From positions 1-54,209 of the IMG/VR virus record IMGVR_UViG_3300008050_000051: DNA of 54,209 nucleotides. One strand, written 5' to 3'. The stretch is from a virus. The position numbers were made by a program, and so were the translations under genes. The notes beneath the pieces are model-generated. The model was given only the letters and a program-made list of their open reading frames with translations, searched no databases and was not told where the DNA came from. Below are positions 5,205 to 11,579 of this stretch, piece after piece. The first letter of the stretch is position 1, and each line of letters starts with the position of its first letter.

Positions 5205-5849
5205 TTAGTGTGAGAGAAACCTAACTGTTTTCGATACGCTCCAACATAATCCACAAGCTGCACAGCTTGCGGACTTTTCAGTTTGTTCCGGGCAGACAAA
5301 AGACTTGCCCTCGAATGATTCCTCGGCTGCGTAGAGATTAGATCCAGTGTACTCTTTTGAGCGGGAATAGCGAATTACGCAACGCTCCGAGAATTTTCTA
5401 TTTAGCTCCTGGATTGCTTTTCCGATTCGGCTTTCTTCTTCTCTACCAGTGTATCCAAACAAACATAGGGAAGAATACTTCCAAAGCATCTCATCCCAGA
5501 AATTCACATAATCCACGCTATAGAAATCACCTAGAACGTGGAGCCTAATTACAATCCCTTGCGGGTGCTTTTTCATTAGGGCTGCAATTTCAATTTCCAG
5601 CTTATCGGTTAGCCCGTTAGTAGAAAACCTATGGGCGAAAGGCATGTTATTACCGTAACAATCTTCCCAATGATGGCAAGAAGGGGGACACGTTTCCCTT
5701 TCAATCAAAGTGAGAGAGAATAGCTTTTTCCCCCTCCATTTCTTAGATGTAATCTTGAAACCAAGCTTCTTATTATTAGAGCCTTGCTTCAAGATTGTAT
5801 TTCCATCCACGGATCGGATGGATTTCTGAAACCGTGTAGATACTTTCAT
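5205..5849 (-). CDS. Gp88-like phage protein
   Basis: ATG 5849 gives 214 residues; a GTG at 5867 is in frame, but TATGCT at 5856-5861 looks like a -10 box only 6 nt before the ATG. The pattern C54-x3-C58-x5-C64 followed by YGNNMPFAHR, then HVLGDFYSVDYVNFW (about 104-118), and a C-terminal cluster of cysteines, matches the phage Gp88 family known from mycobacteriophages and many environmental phages. Its biochemical function is not established; the conserved cysteines suggest metal or Fe-S binding. Confidence is good for the family and nil for mechanism. Confidence 0.7.
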   Translation of the reverse strand: MKVSTRFQKSIRSVDGNTILKQGSNNKKLGFKITSKKWRGKKLFSLTLIERETCPPSCHHWEDCYGNNMPFAHRFSTNGLTDKLEIEIAALMKKHPQGIVIRLHVLGDFYSVDYVNFWDEMLWKYSSLCLFGYTGREEESRIGKAIQELNRKFSERCVIRYSRSKEYTGSNLYAAEESFEGKSFVCPEQTEKSASCAACGLCWSVSKTVRFLSH

Positions 5850-5918
5850 TAGGGTAGCATACCACACTCACGGCCAAAATGGGGGACTAATCCGAGAAAA
5901 GTTCAGAAAGTAGTTGTC

Positions 5919-6030
5919 GTAAGTGCTTGTCCTGTATAGACTTAGGGCCCCGGCCCCGGCGATTTTTGTAAAATCTATGTAAAAAGCCCCCGCTGTTACC
6001 AGCAGGGGCCTAATATATAAATAGTTATAG
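5919..6030 (-). repeat. intergenic regulatory repeat, copy A
   Basis: First of six dispersed copies. It contains the invariant 26-bp core at 5921-5946, a GC-rich stretch, the tandem TTTACA-type boxes, a terminator hairpin and an AT-rich end. From the core to 6030 it is nearly identical to copy B. It lacks the promoter half found in copies B-F; that part is replaced by unrelated sequence before the Gp88-like gene. Confidence 0.8.
5981..6009 (-). terminator. rho-independent terminator in repeat copy A
   Basis: On the - strand gcccctgctg pairs with cagcgggggc (10 bp including one G-U) around a GTAA loop, followed by a TTTTT tract. It ends transcripts coming from the RNA region and the 6456-6944 genes. 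Confidence 0.8.
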
Positions 6031-6297
6031 AGGTGGAGAGGCTAGAGTAGCGGGACTCACTTTATTACCCGCACCCCATGACAAGCTTCTACGGTGCTTG
6101 CAACCTATGAAACTGTAGTTCATTTCATGAGGCGTTACCTGTGTTTGGGTTCTCTGTCACATTAGACCGTCTTAGGGGTCTCCCCCTTCTCCCTTGTACA
6201 GTTATCCGAGGATACCCTCCAGTTACCGAGGGCATTACCTGATACTCTACTCCAGAGGTTTGCAACCCTCTGAAGTCTCTCCGTGTTTTCAATGTGC
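6031..6297 (-). other. structured non-coding tail downstream of the tmRNA-like RNA
   Basis: No gene is seen in 267 bp. Read on the - strand it is rich in short hairpins: CAGAGG/CCTCTG just after the CCA end, CCCTC/GAGGG, TATC-CTCG-GATA, AGGGG-GAGA-CCCCT with a GNRA-type tetraloop, ATGAAA/TTTCAT, and GCGGG/CCCGC. Around 6071-6101, GCAAG/CTTGT and GCACC/GGTGC interleave, so they either compete or form a pseudoknot, although the connecting loop would be very short. It lies between the tRNA-like element and terminator A, so it should be transcribed with it. No tmRNA tag frame ending in Ala-Ala-stop was found. Confidence 0.45.
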
Positions 6298-6378
6298 TGG
6301 TGGAGGTGCAGGGAATCGAACCCTGGTCCTAACTAGTTCCCCATGGGGTCTTAGCTAGTCGAACACCATATCACCCCC
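6298..6378 (-). ncRNA. tmRNA-like tRNA-like domain without mRNA-like domain
   Basis: Read on the - strand, GGGGGTG (6378-6372) pairs with CACCTCC (6308-6302), leaving G3-U70, the alanyl-tRNA synthetase identity pair; discriminator A is 6301 and CCA is encoded at 6300-6298. The 5' part GGGGGTGATATGGTGTTCGA matches the tmRNA 5' consensus with its TTCGAC D-loop motif. The 3' part has GGAC (6329-6326), a 5-bp T stem and TTCGATT loop, as in tmRNA. Instead of pseudoknots and a tag frame there is a P2-like 7-bp stem (6358-6352 with 6335-6329), a 3x3 internal loop and a CATG-capped CCC/GGG tip. A normal 5-bp/7-nt anticodon arm does not fit. Leader 6379-6455 folds into further hairpins, one of which (6382-6386) can pair with the acceptor 5' strand. 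It is probably co-transcribed with the 6944-6456 genes. Confidence 0.65.
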
Positions 6379-6455
6379 GAAGGGTGCCCCTTTTCCCGTA
6401 GGGGCCACACGCTTTCTTTTTAGTCGGTCAGGGGCTACCGTCCCGACTCAGAAGC

Positions 6456-6695
6456 CTAGAATCCTTGCGTAGCAAGATATGCCCTTGCATGACCTATATG
6501 CCGCTCACCCTTGCCGTTGTGTTCGAAGGGAAGCGCACGCCGTAGAGATTTGTACGCTTCTAACGCATGATCTGCGGCTTCCATGTTATCAGTTCCTGAG
6601 CGGTAGAGTTCTGCGTAGAGTTCTCCAACTTCAATACTTAGAGTATGGATTTTAGCTAGGAGGGTGGGTTGAGAAATGTTTTGTGTCTTATTCAT
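6456..6695 (-). CDS. hypothetical protein (79 aa)
   Basis: A helical, mildly acidic protein starting MNKTQNISQP. Its first 50 bp are duplicated in tandem immediately upstream (6696-6745). The upstream copy reads for 17 codons and stops at a TGA that overlaps the ATG at 6695, so a vestigial leader peptide may couple translation. It lies directly upstream of the tmRNA-like RNA, separated by 77 bp. No family recognised. Confidence 0.6.
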   Translation of the reverse strand: MNKTQNISQPTLLAKIHTLSIEVGELYAELYRSGTDNMEAADHALEAYKSLRRALPFEHNGKGERHIGHARAYLATQGF

Positions 6696-6745
6696 TGGAT
6701 TTTAGCTAGGAGGGTGGGTTGAGAAATGTTTTGTGTCTTATTCAT
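6646..6745 (-). repeat. perfect 50-bp tandem duplication over a gene start
   Basis: Bases 6646-6695 and 6696-6745 are identical. Each unit carries a start codon and the first 16 codons of the 6456-6695 gene; 50 is not a multiple of three, so the outer copy is out of frame and ends early. Perfect identity implies a recent event or a strand-slippage artefact. Confidence 0.85.
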
Positions 6746-6944
6746 GGGTGCATTCTACCTCATACTCAGAAAGATGTTCTTTCTTGTAATCTTCCCAGTC
6801 CTCCGCATGACTGGCGGGGTTATCTTCGGAATGATAACCAGCAGAGAATCCAGACGCGAAAGCATCTTCTAGAAGAGTCCGCATTGCCCTAAATGTGACC
6901 CTGAGAAGTTGTTTAGTACTACCTGAAGTGTGTGTCTTATTCAT
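6738..6944 (-). CDS. hypothetical protein (68 aa)
   Basis: The product begins MNKTHTSGSTKQLL and ends in an acidic tail (EDWEDYKKEHLSEYEVECTHE region). Its stop TAA overlaps the ATGAATAA start of the duplicated unit. A 31-bp sequence around its start (6931-6961) is repeated exactly at 6732-6762 over the start of the next gene. It has the best sigma70-like promoter of the array directly upstream. No family recognised. Confidence 0.6.
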   Translation of the reverse strand: MNKTHTSGSTKQLLRVTFRAMRTLLEDAFASGFSAGYHSEDNPASHAEDWEDYKKEHLSEYEVECTHE

Positions 6945-6950
6945 GGGTGC

Positions 6951-6979
6951 ATTCTACCTCAGAGGGGAGGATTTGTCAA
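6951..6979 (-). promoter_or_regulatory. sigma70-like promoter, predicted leaderless start
   Basis: On the - strand TTGACA (6979-6974), a 17-bp spacer and TAGAAT (6956-6951) are followed by only 6 nt (gcaccc) before ATG 6944. With the usual 6-8 nt from -10 to the transcription start, the mRNA should begin at or next to the start codon. No Shine-Dalgarno site lies in the gap. The -35 overlaps the stop of the upstream gene. Confidence 0.75.
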
Positions 6980-7211: not shown

Positions 7212-7309
7212 GCCCCAGCAGAGGGGTATTTAGCTTTTCTTGCAATCCTAAGTGCTTGTCCTGTATAGACTTAGGGCCTCGGCCCCGGCGATTTTTGTAA
7301 AATCTATGT

Positions 7310-7338
7310 AAAAAGCCCCCGCTGTTACCAGCAGGGGC
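7310..7338 (-). terminator. rho-independent terminator in repeat copy B
   Basis: Same 10-bp stem (gcccctgctg with cagcgggggc), GTAA loop and T tract as in copy A. It lies downstream of the 7420-7650 gene. Confidence 0.8.
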
Positions 7339-7419
7339 CTAATATATAAATAGTTATAGAAAAAGAGAAGAGGGGGGCGTGGCCTATAACCCAGCACCAC
7401 GCCCCCAAGGGCAACCCTG

Positions 7420-8401: not shown

Positions 8402-8542
8402 GTTCTCCAGTATATCATATTATCGGCAGGATACCAGCCCCAGCAGAGGGGTATTTAGCTTTTCTTGCGGTCGTAAGTGCTTGTCCTGTATAGACTTAGG
8501 GCCTCGGCGCCGGGGCTTTGTGTAAAATCTGTGTAAAAAGCC
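8402..8542 (-). repeat. intergenic regulatory repeat, copy C (terminator lost)
   Basis: Has the promoter half, the mini-hairpin and the invariant core (8475-8500), and the TTTACAC boxes, but the terminator stem is replaced by a C-rich/A-rich sequence that does not fold. The GC-rich stretch differs from copies A and B (gcgccggggc) and matches copy E. Confidence 0.8.
8409..8436 (-). promoter_or_regulatory. sigma70-like promoter of repeat copy C
   Basis: TGGTAT (8436-8431), 16-bp spacer, TATACT (8414-8409), 7 nt (ggagaac), then ATG 8401. The -35 is weaker than in copy B but the geometry is identical. Confidence 0.6.
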
Positions 8543-8561
8543 TCCCCAAAATTTTTCAAGC

Positions 8562-10227: not shown

Positions 10228-10323
10228 CCCCCAGGAGAGGGGTATTTAGCTTTTCTTGCGGTCCTAAGTGCTTGTCCTGTATAGACTTAGGGCCTCGGCC
10301 CCGGCGAATTTTACACAAATTTT

Positions 10324-10354
10324 ACACAAAGCCCCCGCTGTTACCAGCAGGGGC
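10324..10354 (-). terminator. rho-independent terminator in repeat copy D
   Basis: Same 10-bp stem and GTAA loop as in copies A and B; the following T tract is shorter (TTT G TG), so it may be leakier. Confidence 0.7.
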
Positions 10355-10381
10355 CTAATATATATTCCGATTTATACTTTA

Positions 10382-11073: not shown

Positions 11074-11209
11074 GTGTTTCATCATACTCTATTATCGGCA
11101 GGATACAAGCCCCAGCAGAAGGGTATTTAGCTTTTCTTGCGGTCGTAAGTGCTTGTCCTGTATAGACTTAGGGCCTCGGCGCCGGGGCTTTGTGTAAAAT
11201 CTGTGTAAA
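11074..11209 (-). repeat. intergenic regulatory repeat, copy E (terminator lost)
   Basis: Contains the invariant core (11147-11172), the gcgccggggc GC-rich variant shared with copy C, TTTACAC boxes and the promoter half. The terminator stem is absent; the upstream gene stop lies about 15 bp away. Confidence 0.8.
11081..11108 (-). promoter_or_regulatory. sigma70-like promoter of repeat copy E, predicted leaderless start
   Basis: TTGTAT (11108-11103), 16-bp spacer, TATGAT (11086-11081), then 7 nt (gaaacac) to ATG 11073. Here the gap has no GGAG, so a conventional ribosome site is missing. Confidence 0.65.
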
Positions 11210-11479: not shown

Positions 11480-11579
11480 GTGTTTCATTATAATATACTT
11501 ATCGACCAGATGTAAGCCCCAGGAGAGGGGTATTTAGCTTTTCTTGAGGTCGTAAGTGCTTGTCCTGTATAGACTTAGG
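11480..11579 (-). repeat. intergenic regulatory repeat, copy F (promoter half only)
   Basis: Carries the promoter, the mini-hairpin (cccctctcctgggg) and the invariant core (11554-11579), then diverges abruptly. This marks the core as one end of the promoter half of the cassette. Confidence 0.8.
11487..11515 (-). promoter_or_regulatory. near-consensus sigma70 promoter of repeat copy F
   Basis: TTACAT (11515-11510), 17-bp spacer, TATAAT (11492-11487), then 7 nt (gaaacac) to ATG 11479. Best -10 of the set and no ribosome site in the gap; strong candidate for a leaderless transcript heading the array. Confidence 0.75.

Follow-up and report, generated by a model that had tools for sequence, protein, structure and literature searches.

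Message-less mini-tmRNAs with an alanine identity in many phages, possible inhibitors of host trans-translation

Background

Bacteria depend on transfer-messenger RNA (tmRNA) to release stalled ribosomes, and compounds that block tmRNA are under study as antibiotics. A viral stretch of 54,209 nucleotides (IMG/VR record IMGVR_UViG_3300008050_000051, positions 1 to 54,209; hereafter the window) raises the question of what a phage might do with one part of this molecule. A preliminary description of the window had reported, at 6298-6378 on the minus strand, an RNA of about 81 nt that folds as the tRNA-like domain (TLD) of tmRNA and has neither an mRNA-like part nor an anticodon arm. We call this element mini-tmRNA, and ask here whether the fold is real, how widely it occurs and what its function may be.

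A complete tRNA-like domain without a messenger part

Every feature described for the TLD is present. Read from 6378 to 6298 on the minus strand, the element is GGGGGTG ATATGGTG TTCGAC TAGCTA AGA CCC CATG GGG AAC TAGTTA GGAC CAGGG TTCGATT CCCTG CACCTCC A CCA, and it matches the Rfam tmRNA model RF00023 with 67.5 bits (cut-off 47, E 3e-24); the match runs from 1 to 374 of the model and leaves out the messenger part. The acceptor stem GGGGGUG/CACCUCC has 7 bp and pairs G3 with U70. Only 28 nt separate UUCGAC from GGAC, and a small capped P2 stem of 7 bp (C+UAGCUA / UAGUUA+G, cap AGA-CCC-CAUG-GGG-AAC) stands where tmRNA has its pseudoknots and tag frame.

The mRNA-like domain (pseudoknots and tag reading frame, ~250-300 nt) is absent from the locus; ARAGORN finds no tag there and calls neither a tRNA nor a tmRNA in the window. 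The tRNA model RF00005 has no match in the window, and no anticodon arm is present in mini-tmRNA. The permuted (two-piece) tmRNA model RF04321 reaches 22.6 bits, under its cut-off of 47, and the two halves lie in the normal order. A stronger RF04321 match in one relative (L268) is spurious, joining the 3' half of mini-tmRNA itself to an unrelated GGGGCCGAA. RF00023, RF00005, RF04321 and ARAGORN find no complete tmRNA or canonical tRNA across the locus, and the preliminary description was right about the structure: 6298-6378 (minus strand) is a complete, potentially chargeable TLD of tmRNA without a messenger part.

The minimum free energy of the 81-nt element does not differ significantly from that of shuffled sequences (z -0.8), a comparison that is uninformative at this length. 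Since the free energy alone is not unusual, evolutionary evidence is required, and covariation among relatives is decisive for the fold.

Relatives keep the acceptor stem and covary

Relatives were sought in IMG/VR with a core pattern (TTCGAC, 10-40 nt, GGAC, GGTTCGANTCC) that includes no acceptor, P2-stem or discriminator position. At least 119 viral contigs matched, compared with 4 matches for a scrambled control pattern of equal make-up. Although the acceptor is not in the pattern, 114 of 119 among the matches listed have a perfect 7-bp acceptor stem; five of the 119 (L012, L025, L045, L063, L113) are false or damaged. When the 3' half was left unconstrained, 20 of 20 distinct elements still had GGAC, the T-arm and an acceptor with U70 and A73, and when the 5' half was left unconstrained the acceptor and the (T)CGAC core were mostly kept. 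The core-pattern matches listed include 11 of the 27 eligible contigs from two completed scans with other anchors, and we estimate the family at about 290 contigs. This widespread phage RNA family had escaped the preliminary description.

A strict first pattern (TGAT...GGGTTCGANTCCC) gave no matches because most relatives have GGA or GAA after the acceptor. Near-duplicates in the collections were handled by clustering at 92%. Matches in Xanthomonas, Alcaligenes and Stenotrophomonas QDWS359 phages consist of a tmRNA-type 3' half only and were left out of the count. The tmRNAs called by ARAGORN over three loci (L008, L040, L077) begin in unrelated upstream sequence and have no TLD 5' half; mini-tmRNA is their 3' end.

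For conservation we sampled 70 non-redundant elements from the matches listed and excluded from the counts those letters that are invariant within the search pattern. In the MAFFT alignment (A1) the acceptor is misaligned owing to D-loops of different lengths, and the statistics were therefore taken on motif-anchored columns and on a uniform subset (A2, 26 sequences). G1-C72, G2-C71 and G3-U70 are each found in 70 of 70 elements, as is A73; the alanine identity is absolutely conserved in the sampled set. The remaining stems vary while staying paired. Pairs 4-69, 5-68 and 6-67 occur as five, six and four pair types respectively, the T-stem also covaries freely, and the first two P2 pairs after the C are paired in all 70 elements with five and six pair types. 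In A2, 97.6% of cells are paired, and the covariation score is 0.699 compared with 0.138 for shuffled alignments (0/500) and 0.06-0.15 for slid partners. The covariation of acceptor, T and P2 stems that the preliminary description had proposed to look for is thus present. Usually the cap combines an A-rich stretch with the hairpin CCGCAYGCGG or one like it of 3-4 bp; in the window it is CCCCATGGGG. Two degenerate copies, in Streptomyces phage Riptide and in L265, keep G3-U70 and A73 and have lost UUCGAC and GGAC.

Occurrence in phages and bacteria

We grouped 157 loci by common open reading frames (ORFs), which gave 47 groups when at least two common ORFs were required, a figure inflated by short contigs, and 19 groups at a one-ORF threshold. 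By this grouping mini-tmRNA occurs in many unrelated phages. It is carried by the Streptomyces phages LuckySocke, BRock and Shaeky, whose sequences were read, by their relatives GiJojo and pSt2308 as judged from a full-length match, and by Stenotrophomonas virus Jojan60; Riptide (L135) has its diverged copy at 83298-83374 of the record. None of the named phages has mini-tmRNA annotated as such.

The genomic setting varies between groups. A tRNA lies within 1 kb in 24 of 121 loci, and many copies lie inside phage tRNA arrays. One group of about 25 contigs (L078, L060, L026 and relatives) has mini-tmRNA between the genes for prohead protease and major capsid protein, on the same strand, in the late structural operon. 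At other loci it is close to DnaB-like or YqaJ genes, and in the group of the window it adjoins a GP88-like gene.

We also ran a similar pattern with a stricter 5' end (GGTTTCGAC) against 84,980 genomes of bacteria and archaea; it had 10 matches, of which about five are real (L124, L126, L129, L130, L131). All five of these genomes also have a separate full-length tmRNA match. The others (L122, L123, L125, L127, L128) are false or of another kind.

Predicted interference with trans-translation

The alanylation identity of normal tmRNA lies in G3-U70 and A73; SmpB needs contacts in its D and T loops, and its P2 resembles a long variable arm (PMC3968760). The alanylation identity, the D/T-loop contact features and P2 are all kept in mini-tmRNA. 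No resume codon is present and no tag would be supplied, which points to a dominant-negative competitor, and the invariant charging signal suggests that it is the alanylated RNA that acts, not an inert sponge for SmpB. We are inclined, by a modest degree, to think that mini-tmRNA, once alanylated, competes with host tmRNA for SmpB, EF-Tu and stalled ribosomes. Blocking of trans-translation through competition for SmpB, alanyl-tRNA synthetase (AlaRS) and EF-Tu is its best-supported predicted role.

Under this hypothesis mini-tmRNA would be transcribed in infection and then trimmed like a tRNA, the host AlaRS would charge it, and host SmpB and EF-Tu-GTP would bind the charged form. This complex would then replace host tmRNA at ribosomes stalled on mRNA ends, with a dominant-negative effect on trans-translation such that nascent (phage) chains would stay untagged. 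The peptidyl-mini-RNA would afterwards need to be removed by drop-off or hydrolysis. A search of 33 records found no SmpB, so that host SmpB would be used, and no second, full-length tmRNA was found in 28 of 29 mini-bearing records, the exception being Riptide. A review (PMC3968760) describes a crystal structure in which alanyl-TLD, SmpB and EF-Tu are bound to a stalled ribosome, which indicates that the A site can accommodate a TLD on its own. A charged TLD may lead to blocked or tagless rescue.

Several points weigh against such competition by a charged RNA. Inhibition by a TLD-only RNA is said in PMC4131195 not to need charging; if so, pure titration of SmpB would leave the universal G3-U70 unexplained. 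The Riptide and L265 copies, with their charging signal intact and their UUCGAC and GGAC gone, hint that charging may outweigh SmpB binding, and the Riptide genome also has a full-length tmRNA (94862-95130 of the record). A dead-end ribosome complex could moreover harm the phage too.

The family as a whole suggests that many phages interfere with the bacterial rescue of stalled ribosomes. Whether widespread mini-tmRNAs in unrelated phages are alanylated inhibitors or hijackers of host trans-translation, and as such a general viral counter-measure to ribosome rescue, seems to us evenly balanced. If true, natural RNA inhibitors exist in hundreds of phage contigs and ribosome rescue is a common front of phage-host conflict; ready-made inhibitors of about 80 nt would become available, and the reasons for phage interference with trans-translation would become testable. 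The universal G3-U70 in message-less RNAs predicts that charging matters even without a tag.

Alternative explanations

It is conceivable that rescue is helped rather than blocked, with charged mini-tmRNA and host SmpB taking over the nascent chain, and drop-off and peptidyl-tRNA hydrolysis freeing the ribosomes while phage proteins stay untagged. The charging identity in every sampled copy fits such tagless rescue, as does the existence of tmRNAs with no message in some plastids and in mitochondria (PMC11915505). An RF-1/ArfB-type factor (PF00472) was not found in 30 mini-bearing records, so that host factors would complete the release. We nevertheless consider it unlikely, since TLD-only RNA is reported to be inhibitory in E. 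coli (PMC11915505, PMC4131195), and no known step releases the ribosome from a message-less peptidyl-TLD. Somewhat less likely still is that selection maintains the RNA for the sake of its charged acceptor end; it could, for instance, donate the aminoacyl group or lure host defences that target the 3' ends of tRNAs or contain SmpB-like domains (predicted for CoCoNuTs). Domains of this kind occur in predicted defence systems (PMC11090510), many copies of mini-tmRNA lie within phage tRNA arrays, and the acceptor identity outlasts UUCGAC and GGAC in the degenerate copies. However, an acceptor-only bait would have no use for UUCGAC, GGAC, the reduced D-loop and P2, and these are kept in most copies.

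The prohead protease-capsid group, with its same-strand element between two structural genes, would suit a fold that serves mainly for cutting of the transcript by RNase P or Z. Such punctuation would not need G3-U70, GGAC or UUCGAC, and other groups have the element in tRNA arrays or early regions, which makes this explanation very improbable. Integration into tmRNA genes is common (PMC11915505), and tmRNA-like 3' ends alone occur in many phages; both would suit an integration-site (attP) remnant or a decaying piece of a host tmRNA gene taken up by the phage. We reject this origin: neither half is missing, the two covary under strong purifying selection, a tyrosine integrase was found in 3 of 30 and a resolvase or serine recombinase in 2 of 30 mini-bearing records, with neither in the window, and the element is nearly absent from bacterial genomes.

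Comparison with known systems

The preliminary description knew of no described phage RNA of this form, and this claim does not hold. A list published in 2014 already gives the ssrA of mycobacteriophage DS6A as 'TLD only' (Hudson et al., PMC4131195, citing Mao et al. 2009; PMC11915505). In both phages a tmRNA has been cut down to little more than its TLD, and the window RNA fits the definition of that kind (PMC4131195), a phage-borne RNA gene barely larger than the TLD, at 81 nt including CCA. With this precedent it belongs to a known kind rather than a new one, as judged from the published description of DS6A. PMC4131195 and PMC11915505 report that TLD-only molecules strongly inhibit tmRNA, perhaps via SmpB titration. 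While DS6A is one reported phage, the present data add another phage and the family to which it belongs. In open-licence full-text literature we found no TLD-only family reported beyond DS6A, which is not proof of absence, and the breadth of the family and its universal alanine identity appear to be unreported so far.

One-piece bacterial tmRNA (ssrA, RF00023) has in common with mini-tmRNA the acceptor with G3-U70 and A73, the reduced D-loop, UUCGAC, the start of P2, GGAC, the T-arm and CCA; it differs in its pseudoknots, resume codon and tag frame and in size (~350 compared with ~80 nt). The full-length or two-piece tmRNAs of Bxz1, Wildcat and Melnitz (PMC4131195, PMC9004378) are likewise phage-borne relatives of tmRNA, but they keep the tag frame and could support trans-translation, which mini-tmRNA cannot. 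The tmRNAs without a coding sequence in Mallomonadaceae plastids and in mitochondria (PMC11915505) are also free of a tag frame, those of plastids being only ~65 bp. They are organellar and act, if at all, in their own organelle, whereas mini-tmRNA is viral.

Genomic context of the window element

The window phage belongs to a T4-like terminase lineage and has no near relative among GenBank phages. Mini-tmRNA is at the matching position in 5 of 5 terminase relatives whose locus reaches the site (L188, L179, L209, L156, L169), and the flanks diverge among these five. In L169 the acceptor has a compensatory change from GGGGGTG/CACCTCC to GGGGGCG/CGCCTCC. Farther out, six loci (L264, L266, L267, L270-L272) have the GP88-like neighbour gene and no mini-tmRNA at that place, and L265 has its diverged copy at the neighbour-gene locus. 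Kept in near relatives and patchy farther out, mini-tmRNA is thus accessory, with strong selection acting on the gene wherever it occurs. The features of the locus are given in Table 1.

Table 1. Mini-tmRNA, its parts and neighbouring features in the window
Feature	Position	Strand	Basis or remark
Mini-tmRNA, stand-alone tRNA-like domain with capped P2 stem, 81 nt including CCA	6298..6378	-	RF00023 match; own model R1, 67.4 bits; covariation in relatives
Acceptor stem, 5' strand GGGGGUG (G3 = 6376)	6372..6378	-	pairs with 6302-6308
Reduced D-like loop AUAUGGUG	6364..6371	-	GG conserved; alignments A1/A2
UUCGAC motif, its C the first base of P2	6358..6363	-	sequence; CGAC mostly kept when unconstrained in search
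P2 stem, 6352-6358 with 6329-6335; cap hairpin CCC-CAUG-GGG, 6339-6348	6329..6358	-	fold; P2 pairs covary, up to six pair types
GGAC linking P2 and T-arm	6326..6329	-	sequence; kept in 20/20 distinct elements when unconstrained
T-arm CAGGG-UUCGAUU-CCCUG	6309..6325	-	sequence, RF00023 match
Acceptor stem, 3' strand CACCUCC (U70 = 6304), and discriminator A (A73 = 6301)	6301..6308	-	sequence, RF00023 match, relatives
Encoded CCA	6298..6300	-	sequence; CCA encoded in 25/70 relatives
Terminator-like hairpin GCCCCTGCT-GGTAAC-AGCGGGGGC then TTTTT	5981..6009	-	sequence; probable end of the transcript holding mini-tmRNA
GP88-like gene, 220 aa, phrog_2554	5205..5867	-	adjacent same-strand neighbour of mini-tmRNA, conserved in seven loci
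Promoter-like site TTGACA-17-TAGAAT (11/12)	6951..6979	-	upstream, same strand; consensus match only

The leader at 6379-6395 on the minus strand (CACCCTTC) can pair with the 5' strand of the acceptor, and a leader with this property lies at the same place in L013, L188, L120 and L169. In L169 it appears to change together with the acceptor (CGCC with GGCG).

Directly 3' of mini-tmRNA, about 310 nt (5981-6297, minus strand) fold with -122.2 kcal/mol compared with -93.0 +/- 5.5 kcal/mol for shuffles (z -5.3). The fold is multi-branched, with GGAGAG/CUCUCC as its closing helix, two hairpins that have UUGCAA loops, and the terminator at its end; this region has no Rfam match and no counterpart in the relatives.

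In relatives without mini-tmRNA beside the GP88-like gene, Pistol ribozymes lie some 1.2 kb upstream of that gene (L264, 1179-1266; L266 and L267, 1229-1277; 54.2 and 43.1 bits, cut-off 34.5). Upstream of mini-tmRNA in the window, a tandem duplication of ATGAATAAGACACAAAACATTTCTCAACCCACCCTCCTAGCTAAAATCCA was seen by eye at 6661-6748. An intergenic direct repeat, consisting of a terminator plus CCTAAGTCTATACAGGACAAGCACTTACGAC..., is present in up to six copies (5916-6031, 7246-7360, 8470-8545, 10261-10364, 11142-11209 and 11549-11579), two of them 98% identical over 115 nt, with short forms in related phages. It looks like a repeated terminator/promoter unit.
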